Assembly: GCA_002729725.1 (NCBI GenBank)
Contig: PBYS01000054.1
Span: forward strand, 1-64,000
DNA: 64,000 nucleotides
DNA from: Puniceicoccaceae bacterium
GTDB taxonomy: Bacteria > Verrucomicrobiota > Verrucomicrobiia > Opitutales > Coraliomargaritaceae
Reading direction: 5' to 3'
Position 1 is the first letter of the stretch. Every line of letters starts with the position of its first letter. The notes beneath the pieces are model-generated. The model searched no databases and was not told the DNA's origin. It was given only the letters and a program-made list of their open reading frames with translations. Below, in pieces: positions 33,817 through 64,000 of the stretch. The position numbers and the translations under genes were made by a program.

Positions 33817-34515
33817 ATGACACAGTCTAAAACACAATCCGATTCCGCGAGCCCACGCTGGTTCGCCCTTATCAACGACCAGGTGATTACTGCCCCACGG
33901 CAGGAATTACCTGTTTCTCTTCTCAAGACGTTATCCTCTATCCCAGATAATCATTCGTTAATCCGGGATCACAAAAGCCCGAATGATCACATTCTCAAAG
34001 ATGATGGGATCGTAGACCTCTCACTCGGAAACGTATTTTACTCCCGTCCGAGCTGCGACTGTCGGCCTTCGAATCCGTGCTCGACTCCGCCAAAACGGGC
34101 ATTTTCGGTCGATGATAGTTTTGAAATCTCAGCAGTGGAGAAACTCTCCAGAGCAGCCTTCTTCTCACTATTCGACCTCTCTGAGGCTTCAAGCTTGTAT
34201 CGGGATTTCGAATCGCCGGATGACCGGAAGATTTGGCCTGATGATGAAATTCATTTTATCGACGGACCGGTATTCTACACAAAAGCCGCCTGTCCTCAGG
34301 ACGATGTCACTATAACGATAGACGGCAAGGAATACCCGATCAAGTCTGGCCAGAGCACCGTGAAGGCGATTAAGGACATGGCTTCTGTTAAACACGGAGA
34401 CGAACTCGTTCAGATTATCAACGGCGACATCACACCATTGGAAGACGGCGGCTCCGTATGCATTGAGGGCGGAGAAGTGTTTGTAAGCCATCCCAGACAA
34501 GGAGGATCCTCTTGA
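33817..34515 (+). CDS. Multiubiquitin protein: three tandem beta-grasp (ubiquitin-like) domains
   Basis: A 232-residue protein made of three related units: about 14-77 (WFALINDQVITAPRQEL to GNVFYSR), 94-156 (FSVDDSFEISAVEKL to GPVFYTK) and 163-226 (VTITIDGKEYPIKSG to GGEVFVSH). The third has the DGKEY start and GGEVF end of the 'multiubiquitin' family; each unit has a final (V)F-(Y/V)-(S/T) strand. The C-terminus is PRQGGSS: a Gly-Gly pair followed by two residues, as in pro-forms that a peptidase must trim before activation. A linker with Cys80, Cys82 and Cys88 separates units 1 and 2. It overlaps the E2, JAMM and E1 genes that follow, so it is very probably the modifier they process and conjugate. 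Confidence 0.88.
   Translation: MTQSKTQSDSASPRWFALINDQVITAPRQELPVSLLKTLSSIPDNHSLIRDHKSPNDHILKDDGIVDLSLGNVFYSRPSCDCRPSNPCSTPPKRAFSVDDSFEISAVEKLSRAAFFSLFDLSEASSLYRDFESPDDRKIWPDDEIHFIDGPVFYTKAACPQDDVTITIDGKEYPIKSGQSTVKAIKDMASVKHGDELVQIINGDITPLEDGGSVCIEGGEVFVSHPRQGGSS
34501..34506 (+). promoter_or_regulatory. Shine-Dalgarno GGAGGA that selects a TTG start
   Basis: GGAGGA inside the last codons of the multiubiquitin gene (it also encodes the Gly-Gly) lies five bases before TTG at 34512-34514. That TTG overlaps the multiubiquitin stop as TTGA, so the E2 start is set by this site and coupled to termination of the modifier gene. Confidence 0.7.
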
Positions 34516-34853
34516 TTGAGTTCCCTCAAGATCAGATAGCGGAGCTCAAAGCTTTGGTAACCGAGGTCTCGACGGCCACTGAGGGAGGTTTTACCTACTT
34601 CTATCTTCCAAAACTCAGATTGCCTACCGGTTGCATCAGTGAACATGCCGATGCGCTTCTATGCCCTATGCCACGGGACGGTTACGAGTCACGAATGTAT
34701 TTCAGCGAAATCGTCAAACCTCAAGGGTTGAACTGGCATCAAAAGGACATTCGTATTCTTGACCGATCTTGGTTCGCCTTCTCTTGGAAAACAAACCGGA
34801 GCGATATCCGCCTGGCTCAAATGGTCATGGAGTACTTGAGGGCATTTAAATGA
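34512..34853 (+). CDS. E2-like ubiquitin-conjugating enzyme, Prok-E2_E type
   Basis: A 113-residue protein starting at TTG. It has the signature of prokaryotic E2 family E: LRLPTGC (Cys41), ADALLCPMPRDGYESRMYF (Cys51), W-H, then SWFAFSWKTN and a closing helix LAQMVMEYLRAF. Family members are predicted to accept an activated ubiquitin-like protein from the E1 as a thioester. Cys41 or Cys51 would be the active site; which one cannot be told from sequence. It is short compared with eukaryotic E2s (about 150). It sits between modifier and JAMM genes and overlaps both. Confidence 0.85.
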   Translation: MIEFPQDQIAELKALVTEVSTATEGGFTYFYLPKLRLPTGCISEHADALLCPMPRDGYESRMYFSEIVKPQGLNWHQKDIRILDRSWFAFSWKTNRSDIRLAQMVMEYLRAFK

Positions 34854-35350
34854 ACGTGCAAATTCGAGTTCACCAGAATCTATACGAAGAGGCATTCCGA
34901 GATCTGCGTCGCCCACATCCCTTTGCTTATGAGCGGGTCGGGTTCTTATCTAGTTCCACGGTTCAAATAGACCCCGAACATGTCCTTGTCCTTCTGACGC
35001 ATTTTCACTCAATTCCAGACGACCATTACCTTGAAAATCCCGATGTCGGCGCTTGCATTGGCACAGAAGCTATCCGCGCTGCGATGCAGAGGTCGATTGC
35101 ACTCCAGGCTGGCCAGATACATACGCATATCCACGAACATTGGGGGCAGCCACATCCTAGCTCCGATGATCTGGAGGGAGTGCCTCCAATCAATCGTTCA
35201 CTCTCTCTGACGTCTCCAAACCAAACTTCAGGATATCTGATTCTGAGTCATAACTCTGCTTGGGCAGAGCTTAATGTTGCCAAATCCGGCCTTATAACTA
35301 GAGCCGATAAGTTTACAGTTGTTGGCTTCCCATTGCGATTTCTACAATGA
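34850..35350 (+). CDS. JAMM/MPN+ peptidase (deubiquitinase-like), locus A
   Basis: A 166-residue protein with all JAMM residues: Glu28 (FAYERVGFL), His91 and His93 (QIHTHIHEHWG), and Ser104 and Asp107 (HPSSDDLEG). The spacing between the second His and the Ser is slightly longer than usual. JAMM enzymes are zinc proteases that cut isopeptide bonds or trim pro-ubiquitins. Here the likely tasks are removal of the terminal Ser-Ser of the multiubiquitin to expose Gly-Gly, separation of units, and deconjugation. Start codon overlaps the E2 stop (ATGA) and its stop overlaps the E1 start. Confidence 0.88.
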   Translation: MNVQIRVHQNLYEEAFRDLRRPHPFAYERVGFLSSSTVQIDPEHVLVLLTHFHSIPDDHYLENPDVGACIGTEAIRAAMQRSIALQAGQIHTHIHEHWGQPHPSSDDLEGVPPINRSLSLTSPNQTSGYLILSHNSAWAELNVAKSGLITRADKFTVVGFPLRFLQ

Positions 35351-36165
35351 AAACGAATAAAGCAGATGACGCATTCTCTCGCCAGTCTTTTCTGGGCGTG
35401 AACTCACAATCCATCATTGAACGAACCGTGGTCGGCATAGTTGGTTTGGGTGGTGGTGGCTCTCATATCGCCCAACAGCTCGCTCACCTGGGATTCTTGA
35501 ACTACGTAATTTACGACGGTGACCTATTCGAAGAAAGCAACCTGAATCGCCTCGTGGGAGCGACCGAAGAAGATATTAAGAACAAAAAACCTAAGATTGA
35601 TATTGCCCGGCGACTCATCTCAAGGATACGCCCCCACGCGAAAATTCATGCAACAATGAGCAAGTGGCAAACGTCTCCTGGTCGGCTCAAAAGTTGTGAT
35701 ATTATTTTTGGTTGTGTCGATGGATTCGATCAACGCAGACAACTTGAAGCAATGGCTCGCCGATACCTAATACCACTAATTGACATCGGCATGGATGTCC
35801 ACCAGCCGGAAGAAGGCTCGCCGACTATTTCAGGCCAGGTCATTCTTTCCATGCCCGGACACTCTTGCATGCAGTGTATGGGATTCCTAAACGAAAACAA
35901 TTTGGCCAAGGAGGCTGGAAATTATGGCGATGCTGGCATCAATCCACAGGTAGTGTGGTCGAATGGCCTTCTTGCCTCTGCAGCAGTCGGTCTAGCTGTT
36001 GATCTTATCACTGATTGGTCTAAATCTTTAAGGAGTCCAATTTATCTTTCTTACCGAGGGGATTCTCCAACATTGACTGAAGACCCAATATTCGCTTATT
36101 CTAAAAAAGTATGTAAGCACTATCCACTAAAGGAAATCGGTGCTCCAACTTTCACCAAACTATAA
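35347..36165 (+). CDS. E1-like ThiF-family activating enzyme, locus A
   Basis: A 272-residue protein. The Rossmann nucleotide loop is VGLGGGGSH (about 32-40); the acidic strand IYDGDLFEESNLNR (55-68) carries the Asn-x-x-Arg conserved in E1/MoeB/ThiF; GCVDGFDQRRQ (122-132) is the adenylate-binding Asp region. One CxxC (C174, C177) is present; the usual second CxxC is not seen, only Cys256, so zinc binding may be incomplete. No clear catalytic Cys lies in the crossover region. The enzyme should adenylate the C-terminal Gly of the multiubiquitin. It overlaps the JAMM gene by 4 bp. Confidence 0.88.
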   Translation: MKTNKADDAFSRQSFLGVNSQSIIERTVVGIVGLGGGGSHIAQQLAHLGFLNYVIYDGDLFEESNLNRLVGATEEDIKNKKPKIDIARRLISRIRPHAKIHATMSKWQTSPGRLKSCDIIFGCVDGFDQRRQLEAMARRYLIPLIDIGMDVHQPEEGSPTISGQVILSMPGHSCMQCMGFLNENNLAKEAGNYGDAGINPQVVWSNGLLASAAVGLAVDLITDWSKSLRSPIYLSYRGDSPTLTEDPIFAYSKKVCKHYPLKEIGAPTFTKL

Positions 36166-37127: not shown

Positions 37128-37455
37128 GGTGAGGCGAGCGGAGATAAATCCGGTAGGCACGGCGCATAGGATTTTTAGGGGATTGTGCGCGGTCGTAATA
37201 GAGCGGAGGTTCCTGCTCTGTTTCGGGGTCGTAGGAGAGGGAGAGTATGCGCACGGCCATTAGCGTTCGTGTTCCGTTTCGATTACACAACCGCATCAAT
37301 CGCGAAAGGCTCAAAGGATACTGGCAACTGGCTTTGGTTTGGTAGAGTTCGTCGTAATACAGGCGAACCTTTGCAAGAACAAGATTGAGCATTTGCTGCT
37401 GCCTGGCATCGATGGTCTCGGTCATTTCCGAGCCAACCCAATGACGCACGTTCAT
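37117..37455 (-). CDS. Small helical protein coupled to the HerA-like ATPase
   Basis: A 112-residue basic protein whose ATG overlaps the stop of the HerA-like gene (ATGA), so the two are probably translated together. It contains a helix with QQQMLNLVLAKVRLYYDELY and a middle segment SLSRLMRLCNRNGTRTLMAV that could be an HTH-like fold. It may be a partner or DNA-contact subunit of the ATPase, but that is an inference from coupling alone. Confidence 0.5.
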   Translation of the reverse strand: MNVRHWVGSEMTETIDARQQQMLNLVLAKVRLYYDELYQTKASCQYPLSLSRLMRLCNRNGTRTLMAVRILSLSYDPETEQEPPLYYDRAQSPKNPMRRAYRIYLRSPHRDK

Positions 37456-38777
37456 TTCATCAAATCCTCATCTTTAACGAGTCCAATCTTGATCGGAACA
37501 AGCGGGAAGCGGACATGACAGGCTGGAATACGGTTCTTCACCTTCACAATACCCTCTCCTACTTTGAGATAATCCAAGTAAACTTCATCTCCTCGTTTCA
37601 AAAAGAGCGCCTGCCTGGCAGCCATAATATCGGCCTCGTGAGTCAGCGACATCAGGATCAGCGTTCCGGTGTTTCCGAGTAGGTAAATGGGCAGTCTCGA
37701 AGCATGTTGCGTGATCGCGATCAGACCTTGGCCGAAGGATCGAATCTCACGATAGATATTCTCAAGACCACTATTCGGGTCGTCGTGTCTCGCGGGAAAG
37801 ATGTTATGCGCCTCTTCCAACAGGAGGACGTGGCGTAACCCCGGAGTCTCCCCCTGCCCCAATCGATACAAATGAATCCAGCGCAGAATTACTTCGGAGA
37901 GAAAAGTCCGAACAGCCTTGGGTAGCTCCATATCCAATTCGAGCACGACGGAACTTTGCAAAAGCGACTCAAGCGGCAACGGTTGCCTCATATTGAACGC
38001 TTCAGCAGCAGGTCCAAAAGTAAAGGTTCTAAGGATTCTAAGGCAACTGTCGCGCCACAGAGCGCGCCTGCCACCATACCGGGAACGATCGACCCGATTA
38101 CGGATATCATAAAAGTTCGGGAAGTCGTGGGCATTATTATCATAAAACCCTCTGGCTGCAAATTCCTTGTCAGCATGCTCGATCAAGACATCAGCAACAC
38201 CTTGGCCGGAGGCGTGGGTTTTCTCCAGCACCTCTGCCAGAATTTGAATCCATGTTTGTGGATGCACTTTTGGTGGAGGGCGTAAAGGATTCCAATCAAA
38301 GGGAGCCGCCGGACGTCCCACGGTATAGACCTTGAGATCTTTCATCGCGGGCGCACTTCTCAAGTTGCGATAGCTCCGTTTCCAATCGATCACCATGAAA
38401 GGGATCTTTTTTCGATGCAACTGGCGCAGAATATTAAATGCGCAATTGGTTTTCCCTGCGCCACTGGTGGCAAAAATGCCAATATGTCGGGTAAATTCTT
38501 GGGTTCTCAAATGCAGAGCGCTTGGTTCCCTGCCGGGATAGAGGACTTCACCGAGGCGGATGTCTCCAAGCTCGCTACCGCTTGAAGGGGTCAAAAAAAC
38601 GTCTCCGTCTGTGACATTCTGCTTAAGATGGGTGACACCCATCATCCGGATCATATGAGCCGATTCCATTTTATGCACAGGTGATTCGGAAAGCTCATAC
38701 TGAATCCAAAGGGCATCTGCCGAATCCCCAATAAGTGGCTTCAATCTCTGACAGATACTCCGCAGCTCTTCACTCAT
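37452..38777 (-). CDS. HerA/DUF87-like ATPase
   Basis: A 441-residue P-loop ATPase. An N-terminal barrel-like region precedes Walker A ATSGAGKT (103-110); FMVIDWKRSYRNL follows, and Walker B is LLLEEAH (318-324), then an arginine-finger-like segment REIRSFGQGLIAITQ. Domain order and the D-W-K-x-x-Y motif fit the HerA/FtsK-like DUF87 family, hexameric pumps that move DNA or help end processing; archaeal viruses, plasmids and conjugation systems carry similar ones. It overlaps the D12 methylase by 8 bp and a small helical protein by 4 bp. A nuclease NurA-type partner is not seen, so a role in DNA transfer of the element is as likely as one in repair. Confidence 0.82.
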   Translation of the reverse strand: MSEELRSICQRLKPLIGDSADALWIQYELSESPVHKMESAHMIRMMGVTHLKQNVTDGDVFLTPSSGSELGDIRLGEVLYPGREPSALHLRTQEFTRHIGIFATSGAGKTNCAFNILRQLHRKKIPFMVIDWKRSYRNLRSAPAMKDLKVYTVGRPAAPFDWNPLRPPPKVHPQTWIQILAEVLEKTHASGQGVADVLIEHADKEFAARGFYDNNAHDFPNFYDIRNRVDRSRYGGRRALWRDSCLRILRTFTFGPAAEAFNMRQPLPLESLLQSSVVLELDMELPKAVRTFLSEVILRWIHLYRLGQGETPGLRHVLLLEEAHNIFPARHDDPNSGLENIYREIRSFGQGLIAITQHASRLPIYLLGNTGTLILMSLTHEADIMAARQALFLKRGDEVYLDYLKVGEGIVKVKNRIPACHVRFPLVPIKIGLVKDEDLMK

Positions 38778-52656: not shown

Positions 52657-53469
52657 CTACCAAGCTAAAGCTTCAGGAGCTTGTGAAAATAAACTATCCA
52701 ACACGGGATATAAACGATGCTGCCTCTGCATTTCCAGCCAAACGGTTCTATGCCCTAAATTTCTTAGTTCTTGCTGCCGTAAATTCAGCAGTAACTGGTC
52801 AGCTCCATTAGCCTTTTCTTCGATGTATTCTCGTAATCTGGAGCGATAACTTCCAAATGCGGTACGGCGAGAATCAACTAAATAATCCCGATGATTAAGC
52901 CGAAGAACTTTAATCGTATATTCCGCACGCAGCTCATTTTCTCTAGAAAGGCCTTCCATCGGCAAGAATACGAACGTATTCGCGATATCAAGCCACAGAA
53001 AGCTCAAGGGATCCTCAAGACGGGGATTTATTAAGGCTGGTTGGCCAGCGATTGGCGGCAACACGGGGGCATTTCGATGTCGCGTGACATCGACAACTTG
53101 AGCCGAAGGAATACTCTTAACGACCGCATACTTATTATTCTTGGGCCCATTACACGGACCGCATGCATATAAGTAGTTTTTCCACGAAAACACCGCTTCG
53201 GGATACAAATCTTTAGGTGCGATATGCTCTACTTCGTCCGCCACAGAATCTTCACAATAGCCGCAGCGTTTATGCCCGTGGCACATCTTTGTCAGAACTT
53301 CCCGAACATTGATAAATGTAGAATTGCGCTTGTTATTTCTGCTACCAAACAGTCTCTTACCCTCGTTGACACGTGTCTCGTAGTCAGAAATGGAATCAAT
53401 TTCAACCTGCCATTGACTCAGATCAGTCGCAGCCGAAGCATCCAAAGGAAGTGATGGTAGCTTAATCAC
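52657..53469 (-). CDS. ptuB: Septu PtuB-like HNH endonuclease
   Basis: A 270-residue HNH nuclease. The core is CGYCEDSVADEVEHIAPKDL, then AVFSWKNYLYACGPCNGPKN: CxxC, the catalytic His in the V-E-H-I-x-P strand, and the C-x-x-C-N half of the zinc site. The layout matches the TIGR02646/PtuB group. It lies 19 bp after an ABC-type ATPase gene of PtuA kind, and the pair forms a Septu anti-phage system in which PtuA controls DNA cleavage by PtuB. No reverse transcriptase or retron RNA was seen nearby. Confidence 0.82.
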   Translation of the reverse strand: MIKLPSLPLDASAATDLSQWQVEIDSISDYETRVNEGKRLFGSRNNKRNSTFINVREVLTKMCHGHKRCGYCEDSVADEVEHIAPKDLYPEAVFSWKNYLYACGPCNGPKNNKYAVVKSIPSAQVVDVTRHRNAPVLPPIAGQPALINPRLEDPLSFLWLDIANTFVFLPMEGLSRENELRAEYTIKVLRLNHRDYLVDSRRTAFGSYRSRLREYIEEKANGADQLLLNLRQQELRNLGHRTVWLEMQRQHRLYPVLDSLFSQAPEALAW

Positions 53470-53488
53470 AAACTATACTCCAAATCGG

Positions 53489-54751
53489 CTACATTGAAGC
53501 GGGAAATAAAGCTTGTAGCCTCTCTCTCACTCTCTGTTCCTCTTCGTTCAAACTTGAAGACAGTGCCTTTCTGTTCAATTCGGAAAGCCTCCGCTGCTTT
53601 TTCTGTGCCGACTCTGATCGACTTACATCTTCTCCAAAAAGGTCAGTCCCGTAGGCATCAAGTACACTTCCAAATACGAGGCGTTCCTTCTCGATCCCTT
53701 CAACCATTCGCGCGACTTCATCAGATCCAGGAGTTGGCAGTCTAAATATTGACCCCTTCTCGGCAGCATGACAGACTAGTGGGCTGTGAGAGGTCACAAT
53801 AAATTGTATTTTCGGGAAATGCTTAGTTAACCAAAAACCGATACGACGCTGCCAAGTAGGATGCAAATGTGCATCAATCTCATCAATCAGAACTACGCCA
53901 GTATGGCCGACCGTAATCAGACCAGATTCAGAAACTTTAAACAACAGAGAACCGGGCCATGTCATCACCATCTGACGCAGTAACTCAAAGCACAAGCTGA
54001 GTATAGAACGAAATCCATCCCCTAATGAATCAACCGATACGGTAATCCCATTTCCATCGCGAAAATTAACACCCTTTGAATCGACGCTATCAATTGTCAC
54101 TCCATGCGGGAGAAAGCCCTCTTGATTGACAAACTCAATAAGATTATCAAGCAATTTGCCGCTACGGTAACTATTATCAAGTTGCTCGAACCTAAGTTGA
54201 CCGAGCCAGTCCAAGCACTCAGATAAAGCCACATCCTCTCCGAAAACCGACAAATGACGAGCTAAACGAGGTTGAGAGTAGAAGAGCTTTTCTGTATCTT
54301 TATTACCTCCAGTAAAACGTCGAAAGGGTCCAAATGATGCGCCAAACCATCCTGGCTTATCACTCCAGATATTACGACTTGTTACGTTCTGCAACTTACA
54401 TTCCTTCAACTCAACTCGGGTTGAACCGCGCGTAAATCTAACTCCAGCTCCCAGATAGTAATTAGTCGTCTGCTTACCCTTCCCTGACCATTTGTCTTCA
54501 GCATGACCATCTACACTTAACCTGATCAGACCTTCTTGCGCATCTTCAAACAACCACGTGTCCCAATTTTGACGAAGAGCCTCGGCAATTGTATTTCCGA
54601 CTAAAGCCAATGCCACGGATCTTAACACTGTTGATTTACCTGAACCATTGTCACCGATAATAACATGCCAACCAGCTCGACTAGAAGTGCATGTCCACTT
54701 TAGATGCTTAATTGCCCTAATATTTTTAATTTCTACGGAATAAATATGCAT
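53489..54751 (-). CDS. ptuA: Septu PtuA-like ABC ATPase
   Basis: A 420-residue AAA/ABC ATPase of the OLD/RecF-like kind. Walker A is IIGDNGSGKST (31-41) after MHIYSVEIKNIRAIKHLKW, an N-terminal SMC-like start; Walker B is VLIDEIDAHLHP, and SHSPLVCHAAEKGSIFRLP is the D-loop/His region. PtuA binds nucleotide, forms a ring-like complex and holds PtuB inactive until infection. The order PtuA then PtuB on the same strand matches known Septu loci. Confidence 0.82.
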   Translation of the reverse strand: MHIYSVEIKNIRAIKHLKWTCTSSRAGWHVIIGDNGSGKSTVLRSVALALVGNTIAEALRQNWDTWLFEDAQEGLIRLSVDGHAEDKWSGKGKQTTNYYLGAGVRFTRGSTRVELKECKLQNVTSRNIWSDKPGWFGASFGPFRRFTGGNKDTEKLFYSQPRLARHLSVFGEDVALSECLDWLGQLRFEQLDNSYRSGKLLDNLIEFVNQEGFLPHGVTIDSVDSKGVNFRDGNGITVSVDSLGDGFRSILSLCFELLRQMVMTWPGSLLFKVSESGLITVGHTGVVLIDEIDAHLHPTWQRRIGFWLTKHFPKIQFIVTSHSPLVCHAAEKGSIFRLPTPGSDEVARMVEGIEKERLVFGSVLDAYGTDLFGEDVSRSESAQKKQRRLSELNRKALSSSLNEEEQRVRERLQALFPASM

Positions 54752-59746: not shown

Positions 59747-59774
59747 TTTTCCGTATTCGTGTATTGGATACTAG

Positions 59775-59804
59775 GGCTCAACTTGAAAAGTTGAGCCTTT
59801 TTTC
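59775..59804 (+). terminator. Rho-independent terminator
   Basis: GGCTCAACTT (59775-59784), loop GAA, and AAGTTGAGCC (59788-59797) form a perfect 10-bp stem followed by a T-run. It ends the AbrB/MraZ-like transcript and insulates it from ubiquitin-like locus B downstream. Confidence 0.9.
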
Positions 59805-60148: not shown

Positions 60149-61114
60149 ATGACATTAACCAGCCCCTCAAACTTACGTATCATGAAACAACCAGGACTCA
60201 TCTCACTCGTCGCGTTTAACAAAGAGATAAAAAAAATCGCTGAAAGCGCGGCCAGCAGCCCCGACAAAGAAATCGGCGGTTGGCTCTTCGGATTCTACAC
60301 ACAGGGCAGTATTCCAGTCATCATGCATGCCTCGTTAGCGTCGGAAAATTCGCTACGCACACCCACGAACTTCCAGGAAACAGTTCAACATCTGGAAGGA
60401 AGTGCTAGACTCATCTACGAAAGCTATCGATTCGGAGTAATCGGGCGCTGGCACAGCCACCACCACATCGGACTGACTACACCGAGCGGCGGAGATCAGC
60501 GGACTGGTAATGAGTTCGCTCGGAAGAATGACATCGAGACTTTCGTAGAAATCATCATAAACTTGGAGGGTTCCAAAGAGTCACCAACCGTTCGGATTCA
60601 TCCTTACGCCTACCAGAACAAAAAAACCGTGGGCATGGTCTTTGAGACCATCGAGGGTGATAGTCCAATCAACGCAGCCCTCGAAGACACGATTCTTTGC
60701 CAGAATGTTATTCGTCCAAGAATTTCACTCCCTTCGGAGAACATTTTTTGGCCAGAGCATCCTAAGCCAGTGACGCCCCCGCCTGGATCACTAATTGAGT
60801 CGATTAATTCAATTCCAGAGCAGATACGTCAAAAACTCGAAGTCAGCTACGACTCTGAAATTACAACTGTAACGCTGCCAGTTTCCTTAGATCAGCGCGC
60901 CGTTATTTCGTTCGCTTACACAAACGACGATTACGTGCTGCTAGAGGCCAGCATCCGTGACACCGACAACACTACTTTTAATGCCACAGATTTCCTGGCA
61001 GGTCTCGGCACCGAACCTCTCTCCAACCTTTTCCTGATTATGTTGCACCATGCACTCATCAATCAGGAACCGCCACAACTTCAACTCACTAATGGAGGTT
61101 TCAACGATGAATGA
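60149..61114 (+). CDS. JAMM/MPN+ peptidase with C-terminal extension, locus B
   Basis: A 321-residue protein. Residues about 15-165 form the JAMM domain: Glu41 (DKEIGGWLFG), His102 and His104 (RWHSHHHIGL), Ser113 and Asp116 (TPSGGDQRT). This is a complete zinc-peptidase motif, as in deubiquitinases and pro-ubiquitin trimming enzymes. A further domain follows (about 215-320; IPEQIRQKLEVSYDSEITTV, then strands and a last helix) that I do not recognise; it could be the docking surface for the modifier or for the E2. The start ATG 60149 is supported by an AAGGA site; ATG 60182 is possible. The next gene overlaps by 8 bp. Confidence 0.88.
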   Translation: MTLTSPSNLRIMKQPGLISLVAFNKEIKKIAESAASSPDKEIGGWLFGFYTQGSIPVIMHASLASENSLRTPTNFQETVQHLEGSARLIYESYRFGVIGRWHSHHHIGLTTPSGGDQRTGNEFARKNDIETFVEIIINLEGSKESPTVRIHPYAYQNKKTVGMVFETIEGDSPINAALEDTILCQNVIRPRISLPSENIFWPEHPKPVTPPPGSLIESINSIPEQIRQKLEVSYDSEITTVTLPVSLDQRAVISFAYTNDDYVLLEASIRDTDNTTFNATDFLAGLGTEPLSNLFLIMLHHALINQEPPQLQLTNGGFNDE

Positions 61115-61550
61115 CTACACAAAGGCATATATCGATTTCAATCGGAAGCTGATCAAAGAAGAATTTCCTTGGTTTGATTACCATGAGTTCTCCGAATACG
61201 GGGCAATGTTCACCGGCGAGATCTGGGATTCCGATCGTTCAAAGAAGGCAATCCTAAGAATCGTCTGCGACAACGGGTTTCCAGACAGCAAACCGAACCT
61301 GTCCATCGCTGAACCAAAAATTCTACACCGCTTTGAAGGTTGCCCGCTCAACTTACTCGGATTGTCTCACGATTTTCACTGCCTGGAAGCCAATGAAGTC
61401 GGAGAAGTTCGCATCTGTCATACTGCCTCCTGGGACGCCTCCATCACGCTACTTGAACCCATCAGCAAAGCCTATCTCTGGTGGAACGCTTATGTGCTCC
61501 ATTTGCAAACCGGCAAATCAATCGACTCGTATTTCAACCCTGAAGATTAA
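61107..61550 (+). CDS. E2-like ubiquitin-conjugating enzyme, locus B
   Basis: A 147-residue protein from ATG 61107, with GGAGG at 61094-61098. FPDSKPNLSIAEP matches the E2 'YP-x-x-x-P' strand turn; the active-site region is GEVRICHTASWDASITL with Cys104 as the predicted catalytic Cys, followed by the helix SKAYLWWNAYVLHLQTGK. This matches the UBC fold of bacterial E2s such as those in Bil and CBASS operons (short (I/L)C-x-(H/Y)-x-x-x-W-D-x-S-x-x-L pattern). It should accept the activated modifier from the E1 downstream. Confidence 0.85.
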   Translation: MNDYTKAYIDFNRKLIKEEFPWFDYHEFSEYGAMFTGEIWDSDRSKKAILRIVCDNGFPDSKPNLSIAEPKILHRFEGCPLNLLGLSHDFHCLEANEVGEVRICHTASWDASITLLEPISKAYLWWNAYVLHLQTGKSIDSYFNPED

Positions 61551-61569
61551 ACCACAACAACACAAAACC

Positions 61570-61758
61570 ATGAGCAATAATAACGACATCGCCAACACCA
61601 TGCGGGCACTTTCACAACGGCCCCAAACACCTCCCAAGCACAGCTTGGTTCTCGATAAAGGGACTAAACGGCTCAAGGCCGTGCCGTCCGACAGCCCCTC
61701 CGCCAAAAACCAACTGGCAATCACACCCGAGGATCTTCGGGTATCACTCACAACCTAA
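61570..61758 (+). CDS. Small protein between E2 and E1 of locus B
   Basis: A 62-residue protein, MSNNNDIANTMRALSQRPQT, then PPKHSLVLDKGTKRLKAVPS and a hydrophobic end ITPEDLRVSLTT. It lies 19 bp after the E2 and 13 bp before the E1, and is the only gene between the two. It is too short for a full beta-grasp fold and has no C-terminal Gly. It may be an adaptor, or an unusual modifier. Confidence 0.5.
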   Translation: MSNNNDIANTMRALSQRPQTPPKHSLVLDKGTKRLKAVPSDSPSAKNQLAITPEDLRVSLTT

Positions 61759-61771
61759 CTCAGTAAACACT

Positions 61772-63034
61772 ATGAAACATGCACCTGTAATCGTATGCGC
61801 CGCAGAGTTGTTGGAGTCCGCCCTCAGGGCGGGCTCCCTGGTGGAGCACTCTTTCTCAGTCGTCGACGGACACGTCTACAACGGCCTAATCAGAAATCAA
61901 AGCTCTCAAATCGCCCGAGGCGTTATTTCGAGTTCGGCAACTGAAACTCCGGCAGGAGCGACTGTTCAGGTCATTGTCAGCCAAGACAGTTCGGGCAAGC
62001 TCGTTGTGAACGGAAGTGTCCGCCAAAACGGGAACTGGATCGAAAGTAAGTTGGCAATCATCCCCTTGCAGGAGCAATTGTTCTCGCGCTTTAAAGGTCT
62101 GCACGAGACCGATGATGTAGCTGATAAAACCGTCCTGATCATTGCGGCTGGCTCTGTCGGATCCTCGATTATCGATTATCTAAGCAAACTGGGGATCATG
62201 TATATTACTATCATCGATCCGGAAACCCTCGGAGTGGAAAACATCGTCCGCCATGTTGCAGGACTTGATTCTGTCGGACGCTTGAAGGTCGATTGGGCGA
62301 AGGATCATATACTCTCAAAGAACCCATATGCGAGGGTTGAAACGCACCCGATCAAAGTCGAAGCGAACACCATACCGCTTATTGAACAGCTGATTAAACA
62401 GGCCGATCTGGTAATTTGCACCATCGATAACCGGGAAGGGAAACAACTCGTGAACCGTATTGCGACGCATGCAGGCAAAACCGTCATTTACTCGGGAGCT
62501 TTTCGTCGTGCATACGGAGCCCAGGTGTTGCGCTGCGATCCAAATGATCCGGACTCTTTTTGCTATAATTGTTTCGTCCGCGCCCTGCCGGAACGAGACT
62601 TGGATCAGGAAGTTTCCGATCTCGCCCAGGCACGGGCGTTGGGAATCCACTACTCAGACCGCCCGGCACCAATTCAACCCGGACTGGGTCTTGATATTGA
62701 GCCGACGGCGTTCATGACCGCAAAACTGGCACTGCATGAATTACTAAGAGGCAAAGAGACTCCTTTAAGTTCTTTGAACGAAGATCTCGTCGCGCACTGG
62801 TATATGTGGCTTAACCGCCGCGAACCCGGCACTGACTTCGAGAATCTACAACCACTTGGTTTCGAGACCGACGACCTGCGTATTCTCCGGTGGTACGGCG
62901 TCGAATTCCATAGGGACGAGCATTGTCCCGTATGCGGCAACGGCCTACAGACCCTCATCACTCACACGGATTCGAACCAACCGGGCAATGAACATGGATC
63001 ACATTCATCGGGAGCTGGAACTTCGCTCTCCTAA
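61772..63034 (+). CDS. E1-like ThiF-family activating enzyme with N-terminal domain, locus B
   Basis: A 420-residue protein. An N-terminal domain of about 110 residues (strand-rich, SFSVVDGHVYNGLIR) precedes the Rossmann core; such E1-N domains occur in bacterial ubiquitin-like operons. The nucleotide loop is IIAAGSVGSS (123-132), the Asn-x-x-Arg pair is VENIVRHVAG (155-164), and the adenylate Asp region is ICTIDNREGK. Two CxxC pairs, C264-C267 (FCYNCF) and C385-C388 (HCPVCG), form a complete zinc site, unlike the locus A E1. A Ser/Gly-rich tail follows (GAGTSLS). It should adenylate the modifier of this locus. Confidence 0.88.
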   Translation: MKHAPVIVCAAELLESALRAGSLVEHSFSVVDGHVYNGLIRNQSSQIARGVISSSATETPAGATVQVIVSQDSSGKLVVNGSVRQNGNWIESKLAIIPLQEQLFSRFKGLHETDDVADKTVLIIAAGSVGSSIIDYLSKLGIMYITIIDPETLGVENIVRHVAGLDSVGRLKVDWAKDHILSKNPYARVETHPIKVEANTIPLIEQLIKQADLVICTIDNREGKQLVNRIATHAGKTVIYSGAFRRAYGAQVLRCDPNDPDSFCYNCFVRALPERDLDQEVSDLAQARALGIHYSDRPAPIQPGLGLDIEPTAFMTAKLALHELLRGKETPLSSLNEDLVAHWYMWLNRREPGTDFENLQPLGFETDDLRILRWYGVEFHRDEHCPVCGNGLQTLITHTDSNQPGNEHGSHSSGAGTSLS

Positions 63035-63221
63035 AATTCAAGGGGCTCCGCCCTTCTGGAACAATCGCCAGATTAATGCTCAGGCACCCCTTGGCGAAAA
63101 ACATGGCTGCTGGACAGCCTGCAATTCAGAGTGTCCGGAATGCACCTCTGGCAGTGTGTGCGAGATGCCTCAAGGACATCAGGGAGCACACCAATGCTGG
63201 ATCTGCAAAAATAAATGGTAA
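62994..63221 (+). CDS. Small Cys/His-rich zinc-binding protein, candidate E3-like factor
   Basis: A 75-residue protein from ATG 62994 (62988 also possible), overlapping the E1 end by 41 bp. The C-terminal half, HGCWTACNSECPECTSGSVC then EMPQGHQGAHQCWICKNKW, has Cys39, 43, 47, 50, 56, 68 and 71 and His37, 62 and 66: enough for two zinc ions. The G-H-Q-G-x-H-x-C-x-x-C ending is a zinc knuckle-like pattern. Bacterial RING-like treble-clef proteins occur in ubiquitin-like operons, so this could recruit the E2. The ligand order is not a standard RING, so the E3 idea is inference. Confidence 0.6.
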   Translation: MDHIHRELELRSPKIQGAPPFWNNRQINAQAPLGEKHGCWTACNSECPECTSGSVCEMPQGHQGAHQCWICKNKW

Positions 63222-63239
63222 CCCTCAATCAAATCGATC

Positions 63240-63806
63240 ATGACAACAATCGAACAAATTAAGCGACAGCTCGCCCCCCGTGCCATGGCAGATGAGGTCA
63301 CGAATCCCCACGACGACGCGAGACTATCCTACCGAGTGGAAAGTAACACGGTTGAAGATATGGCAACGTTTCTGGTGCTTATTGGCGATTATCTCAATCA
63401 CCACTATGAACATGCCCTTGGAGCCAGCTTTCCCGAGCTTCACGCACAGGAGATGGCCAAAGAGATCATCGAGCGATCATTGAGAAGAAATGGTGGTAAC
63501 CTGATATCTGCTTATCATAACGCAAACACCGGATTAAATGGCGGCGTTCGAAAAGTTTTGGACACTATCGCCGATGACATTCGAGAAGAGGGACTTCGCA
63601 GGTATATCAACAATGTGCTCGATACCTACGTAAACCCGGTAAGCTTCGAGGAAAAGGTGGAGATCGTTCGAGAGCTAATCGCCGTCCTTCGTATCGACAC
63701 AGTGGATGCTGAAAATCCGGCTCGCTATGCTTCGGACTACAAAAGACTCACTGAAATCTACCTCGAAAATCTACGCAGAACCGAGGAAGCGTTCTTCCGC
63801 CTTTAG
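63240..63806 (+). CDS. Helical protein of locus B
   Basis: A 188-residue protein of about six helices (TVEDMATFLVLIGDYLNHHY, then MAKEIIERSLRRNGGNLISA, ending ENLRRTEEAFFRL). Its start is 18 bp after the Cys/His-rich gene and its end 2 bp before the next start, so it is part of the same operon. Alpha-helical proteins of unknown function are known neighbours of bacterial E1/E2/JAMM genes. I do not recognise a named family with certainty. Confidence 0.6.
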   Translation: MTTIEQIKRQLAPRAMADEVTNPHDDARLSYRVESNTVEDMATFLVLIGDYLNHHYEHALGASFPELHAQEMAKEIIERSLRRNGGNLISAYHNANTGLNGGVRKVLDTIADDIREEGLRRYINNVLDTYVNPVSFEEKVEIVRELIAVLRIDTVDAENPARYASDYKRLTEIYLENLRRTEEAFFRL

Positions 63807-63808
63807 TC

Positions 63809-64000
63809 ATGAGACCGACACTACACAGTTTCCTTGAAGATTTGCTCCTCTGCCATGACAAGATGCACCTCGAACTGGAGCAACGGATGCTGGCACTTCA
63901 GCGGAATTCTTGGCGCATCCGCTCAGAGGAAGAACTACTTGAGTTGCTTCACGAGGTAACTGAATTTCTTCTGACTGGGAGAACAGGCAACACGACGGCC
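63809..64000 (+). CDS. N-terminal part of a helical protein, cut by the window edge
   Basis: Open from ATG 63809 to the window end (64 codons), MRPTLHSFLEDLLLCHDKMH then LELEQRMLALQRNSWRIRSE. Predicted helical, with a Leu/Glu-rich pattern suggesting coiled coil. Its start is two bases after the preceding stop, which supports translation. Function and length unknown. Confidence 0.5.
   Translation, partial: MRPTLHSFLEDLLLCHDKMHLELEQRMLALQRNSWRIRSEEELLELLHEVTEFLLTGRTGNTTA

Follow-up and report, generated by a model that had tools for sequence, protein, structure and literature searches.

The right end of the window, the 64,000-nt stretch analyzed here (positions 1–64000 of the 138-kb contig C54 in the genome labeled G000), carries a tightly packed, co-directional series of genes on the forward strand (60149–64000): a JAMM isopeptidase, an E2, a 62-aa protein, an E1, a 75-aa protein, the helical protein H188 and the start of a second one, H212. 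With gaps of at most 41 nt, they continue past the window edge into an operon of 12 genes that ends at contig position 70644 and adds an HTH-like protein (p359), p166, a Lon-fold protease, a HerA-type ATPase and p193. What the locus encodes is probably a bacterial defense system in a new variant. We see about an even chance that a CBASS-type conjugation cassette, recognized by homology, has been re-deployed in a protease/HerA defense operon within a defense island, and we lean toward a functional coupling of the cassette with the downstream genes, hereafter module 2. Because sequence relationships place the cassette in a CBASS-related family, the system is not of a wholly new kind; what is new is that the cassette is joined to the Lon/HerA/helical module, that its E1 is split and that neither a cyclase nor a recognizable ubiquitin-like protein is present.

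A first-pass annotation, made from the letters alone, had listed JAMM, E2, small protein, E1, zinc protein and helical proteins and had expected the gene set to run on beyond the window. All components were found, with spacings from JAMM through H212 of −8, 19, 13, −41, 18 and 2 nt, and the proposed extension to the right bore out the continuation, giving p359 (contig C54 64479–65558, in the same numbering as the window), p166 (65561–66061), the Lon-fold protease (66049–67629), the HerA-type ATPase (67671–70091) and p193 (70063–70644). After p193 the spacing loosens, and an 88-aa protein (p88; 70760–71026), a dGTPase-like HD protein (71152–73743) and a CapP-like M78 peptidase (73753–75063) are followed by a reverse-strand ORF, DUF2924 and a serine recombinase. 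Upstream of the operon lies a terminator-like hairpin of 12 pairs and a T run (59773–59799, +), in a region in which the count of terminator-like sites is near chance level. A Septu PtuA/PtuB pair (window 52657–54751, −; PADLOC 2e-153 and 6e-114) and, a few kilobases past the locus, a complete Gabija GajA/GajB pair (contig C54 80825–84882, or L005:2826–6883) flank it. With the adjoining recombinase, this gene content identifies the surroundings as a putative mobile defense island, and it is from this setting together with the CBASS relatives that we infer an anti-phage function.

The JAMM/JAB isopeptidase (60149–61114, +; 321 aa with a C-terminal extension) matches the PADLOC JAB model at 5e-14, and its catalytic motif, E41 plus H102-S-H104-x8-S113-x2-D116, is invariant in nine aligned sequences. 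Members of the family of the E2-like protein (61107–61550, +; 147 aa, UBC/RWD fold) match UQ_con at 0.038 and RWD and Prok-E2_E weakly; the Cys104 singled out by the annotation is invariant across 10 aligned sequences. The E1-like adenylating enzyme (61772–63034, +; 420 aa), identified by ThiF (9e-31) and by its relatives, has the extra N-terminal domain claimed for it, beta-rich and ~100 aa long, and a full zinc site: the CxxC pairs C264/C267 and C385/C388 are invariant in 14 of 14 E1s. These four are the only invariant cysteines in the alignment, and the sequence of the window E1 has none at all between 267 and 385, the region where in other E1 enzymes the catalytic loop would be expected. 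As no E1 cysteine is conserved outside the zinc sites, we hypothesize a direct transfer from the E1 adenylate to E2, bypassing an E1 catalytic cysteine. For Cap2 of type II CBASS, a catalytic cysteine has been predicted (PMC10097602). We modeled the fused E1 of the relative L014 (mean pLDDT 68); its ThiF part superimposes on MoeB with Z 27.3 and rmsd 2.3 over 228 residues, and for the N-terminal part we read no more from the model than a low-confidence helix and hairpin.

Between E2 and E1, the 62-aa protein (61570–61758, +) is by homology the detached N-terminal segment of the E1, not a ubiquitin. We searched 2430 ORFs with a profile whose only members were N-terminal E1 extensions, taken from L014 and five CBASS loci; the E2–E1 intergenic ORFs of L017, L013 and the window ranked top (E 2.6e-5 to 4e-4, the last being that of the window). 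The same profile later matched an ORF of L083 at 3.5e-6, so that four genomes encode the segment separately, and in the others it is fused to the E1. A role as modifier was rejected in view of this homology and of the C-termini of the small protein, whose lack of conservation argues against such a role. The annotation was thus right that the ORF is real but had not foreseen its identity.

The 75-aa Cys/His-rich protein, Zn75 (62994–63221, +), overlaps the end of the E1 gene and is probably zinc-binding, judging from its sequence. Neither Pfam nor the plasmids searched gave a match, and assignment to a known family was rejected. It lies directly after the E1, where CBASS relatives have their cyclase, and is by position only a candidate for the tag. 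No protein of the operon matched a Pfam ubiquitin-like family or ends in a Gly-Gly tail, a search that a very diverged ubiquitin-like protein could escape.

To place the cassette, we took one plasmid match and scanned 84,980 species genomes, which gave 13 close loci, and genome searches added L083 and L085; besides the window, the family counts 15 loci. Ten of them (L010, L015, L016 and L018–L024) have the order JAMM-E2-E1-cyclase-Cap4, in some with a TIR protein next. The cyclase of L020 matches the NCBIfam CBASS_cyclase_b at 3e-32 and its nuclease matches Cap4 at 9e-24, both under the curated cut-offs and far above chance, and homologues of the two are present in all ten loci. In 10 of 10 cases the cyclase has ..FG and then A, Q or V as its last residues, and published work on type II CBASS shows Cap2 forming a thioester with the C-terminal glycine of the cyclase, which is then conjugated to targets (PMC10097602). 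On the strength of the cyclase and Cap4 homologues, these tails and the published Cap2 chemistry, we class the ten loci as predicted type II CBASS with E1 and E2 as separate genes. The Bradyrhizobium barranii plasmid cyclase (L010:14940–15811) lies in two overlapping frames, broken or mis-sequenced, with intact copies among the relatives; in L024 (9536–11848), E1 and cyclase form a single 770-aa open frame, a possible natural fusion. L070 (JAMM-E2-E1, the E1 of 393 aa) is a distant member of the family. The distant E1 matches L071–L073 were set aside as another operon type; these are other E2/JAMM/E1 operons, with JAMM and E1 fused in L072 and L073, a Cas2-like small protein in the same two and, as seen by eye, RAMP-like proteins in L072. 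Among viral contigs, the E1 had one weak partial match and the Lon-fold protease no relative; none was found among the plasmids searched for the latter either.

A cyclase is absent from the window locus and from the remaining five relatives (L013, L014, L017, L083 and L085). The window E1 clusters with those of L013, L014 and L017, apart from the CBASS members, with moderate support (81/85). A HerA ATPase lies near the cassette in the window, L013, L014, L017 and L085, and also at the CBASS locus L019. It directly follows the E1 in L013, L014 and L017 (HerA938), being broken off early next to a transposase-like ORF in L013 and truncated where the contig stops in L014. In L085 the HerA is of another type and in divergent orientation to the cassette; its full-length identity to that of L019 is 41%, and the latter is itself divergent from the CBASS locus and 0.9 kb upstream of it. 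In L083, the cassette is without HerA; a 215-aa protein with no Pfam match (L083:7618–8265) follows the E1, in the cyclase's place in CBASS loci. The E1 is sporadic, with 3 of 289 genomes of the phylum matching at 1e-40, two of the three distantly.

The window holds another ubiquitin-like locus, locus A (33817–36165), which encodes a protein ending in GGSS, a 113-aa protein, a JAB and an E1 and resembles the polyubiquitin-type operon in row 6e of Iyer 2006 (PMC1779556). The E1s of the two loci are 24% identical over 133 aa (E 3e-5), and between their JAMM and E2 proteins no significant match was found, which agrees with the annotation that the enzymes are not close copies and supports a conjugation locus distinct from locus A. 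A HerA-like ATPase (37452–38777, −; 25% to HerA938, E 4e-13) lies near locus A, and both ubiquitin-like loci of the window thus have a HerA neighbor.

Module 2 comprises seven genes, p359, p166, the Lon-fold protease, the HerA-type ATPase, H188, H212 and p193. H188 (63240–63806, +), the first copy of a repeated domain, scores 39% to its counterparts in L037 and L057 and 30% to the Lon C-terminus. Its predicted structure is all-helical (pLDDT 90.9), and BLAST showed a helical domain of ~190 aa common to H188, p193 and the C-terminus of the Lon-fold protease. A known fold was rejected for it, every Foldseek match having E 1 or worse and the best VIA-align hit Z 4.0, an absence of match that does not prove a new fold. 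H212 (63809–64000 in the window, ending at contig position 64447) takes the place of H198 in L037 and is linked to the domain through that counterpart (1e-8); it is probably a further copy, assigned mainly by position. The annotation had the helical proteins correctly as parts of the operon but did not foresee that most of the operon lies outside the window. We identify the Lon-fold protease from the invariant Ser-Lys dyad S94 and K138 and from its profile, which matches Lon protease domains (1xhk, 2.6e-9). The HerA-type ATPase (HerA806) matches mad8 of MADS at 9e-12 and resembles T4SS coupling proteins. Among the module 2 proteins scanned with PADLOC, no system was matched besides HerA-type matches and a weak CARF-Lon match.

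The search for the same gene order elsewhere, also proposed by the annotation, recovered the joined arrangement in one Phycisphaerae genome (L017/L037). There a single strand reads JAMM-E2-small-E1-HerA938-coil-WD40-like-kinase and continues p359-p166-Lon-H188-H212-HerA-p193-TOTE primase-HerA. The 6.8-kb contig L057 has Lon-H188-H212-HerA-p193-TOTE, and L011 a p166 fragment, Lon, HerA and p193, so that seven module 2 genes are present in L017/L037, five in L057 and four, one a fragment, in L011. In all, module 2 was found in four of ~630 genomes searched across two phyla, and a close E1 in two of the four, adjacent both times, a rate biased by a sample that includes the genomes that led here. 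The joined arrangement is known from two genomes of different phyla, and a same-strand junction in both by chance is unlikely.

The explanation we favor takes the cassette and module 2 as a single anti-invader operon. In it, the small protein would be a detached subunit of the E1, and the E1 would adenylate the C-terminus of an operon-encoded protein instead of a separate beta-grasp ubiquitin, much as related enzymes are expected to act on the cyclase in CBASS. The E2 would carry the tag on Cys104 to target proteins and the JAMM would take it off, and conjugation might set the activity or location of a HerA/Lon complex in which the repeated helical domain would join the parts, an adaptor role suggested by analogy. 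Upon infection, the HerA motor may engage invading DNA and the Lon-type protease cut host or regulator proteins, with effector and expression control possibly contributed by the dGTPase-like and CapP-like genes. In its boldest form, a pathway free of beta-grasp ubiquitin in which a two-part E1 lacking a catalytic cysteine hands an operon protein to the E2 and so steers or feeds a Lon-HerA machine, the proposal is a long shot; if true, it would mean that protein tagging has become coupled to an ATPase-protease independently.

Gene content indicates that the cassette and module 2 are separable: module 2 is without a close E1 in G226 and G449, L083 and the CBASS loci have the cassette but not module 2, and no module 2 Lon was found in the genomes of L013 and L014. 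With other defense systems nearby, this would fit two independent systems side by side, the cassette, perhaps with Zn75, and a Lon/HerA/helical system starting at H188, which have the island and perhaps a promoter in common but no mechanism. Against this stand the junction gap of 18 nt within 12 co-directional genes, the same joined arrangement on one strand in the Phycisphaerae genome and the recurrence of HerA-type ATPases beside the cassette, and we regard mere neighborhood as a serious but less probable account.

The link of the E1/E2/JAMM family to CBASS in ten loci also allows a CBASS relic here, or a CBASS in which a cyclase located elsewhere, or too diverged for recognition, still undergoes conjugation. 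This is very improbable: CBASS-cyclase searches found none in G000, and of the five further non-CBASS genomes, G289, G633, G714 and G1009 had none and G632 one weak match under the cut-off, elsewhere in the genome; the relatives' cyclases showed no similarity in the window, L004 or L005; the non-CBASS members group with the moderate support given above; and every cassette gene is intact. A role in housekeeping or in a mobile element, such as sulfur transfer or control of conjugation through a TraG-like HerA, would agree with the ThiF/MoeB resemblance of the E1, the likeness of HerA806 to T4SS coupling proteins and the adjoining recombinase. The sporadic distribution, the CBASS relatives and the defense island speak against it, as does the fact that sulfur carriers do not need JAMM and E2, and we think it improbable.

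Under the favored reading of a re-deployed cassette, one conjugation cassette is common to CBASS and a protease/HerA operon, and bacterial immunity may therefore use tagging by E1/E2/JAMM as a control add-on in general, beyond CBASS. Both the natural fusion or split of the N-terminal segment of the E1 and the lack of a conserved catalytic cysteine in this enzyme are directly testable, and the seven-gene Lon/HerA/helical module is a candidate defense system by itself.

The annotation had set the arrangement apart from Bil, type II CBASS and PRTRC. For the whole arrangement this is supported, but its JAMM-E2-E1 part is of the same family as split CBASS in ten loci. The E1, E2 and JAB/JAMM genes that mark type II CBASS are all present, and the relatives' cassettes come with a cyclase, Cap4 and in some cases TIR. 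Type II CBASS, however, has a fused E2-E1 (Cap2), whereas here and in the split CBASS relatives these are separate genes; the N-terminal part of the E1 here is small and encoded separately, the E1 lacks conserved cysteines other than those of the zinc sites, and the cyclase (CD-NTase) of CBASS operons was not matched. Of Cap effectors, no Cap4 was matched near the locus and no Cap4, TIR or phospholipase type by Pfam or PADLOC in the scanned operon proteins. The E1 scores 15.8 bits with PRTRC_ThiF against a cut-off of 144.75 and is not PRTRC-type. Bil (BilABCD) likewise has E1, E2 and JAMM in one operon, together with a ubiquitin-like BilA that bears a reactive C-terminal glycine; here no ubiquitin-like protein is recognized, and the E1 is a single ThiF domain with a beta-rich N-domain, not the BilD pseudodimer. 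Bub operons, too, are described as ubiquitination-like.

A HerA-type ATPase in a multigene defense operon is shared with the HerA/FtsK capture systems (DndFGH-related, BRC) and MADS (mad8), and the two papers on these make no mention of ubiquitin, JAB or ThiF. In the papers searched for Lon, HerA and E1/JAB together, no system matched; split CBASS or this module may have been described before. In rows 6a–6e of Iyer 2006 (PMC1779556), mobile operons combine E1, E2 and JAB, and some of them also encode a metal-binding or helical protein; E2 and E1 are fused in 6a–6c, 6d has a Ub-like protein and 6e a polyUbl with an inactive E2, and these rows do not list the Lon or HerA present here. Closest in concept are the FtsH ternary systems of Kaur 2020 (PMC7159879), which combine Ubl conjugation, an ATPase/protease and a repeated adaptor domain (EAD1). 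Their components are a vWA, an FtsH-type component, a RING E3, a Ubl-E2 protein and a caspase-like effector, and no vWA or FtsH/MoxR-type component was matched by Pfam in the operon proteins, which instead include Lon, HerA and the helical domain. By analogy, this domain, recurring in several proteins of the operon, resembles the effector-associated domains of those systems.
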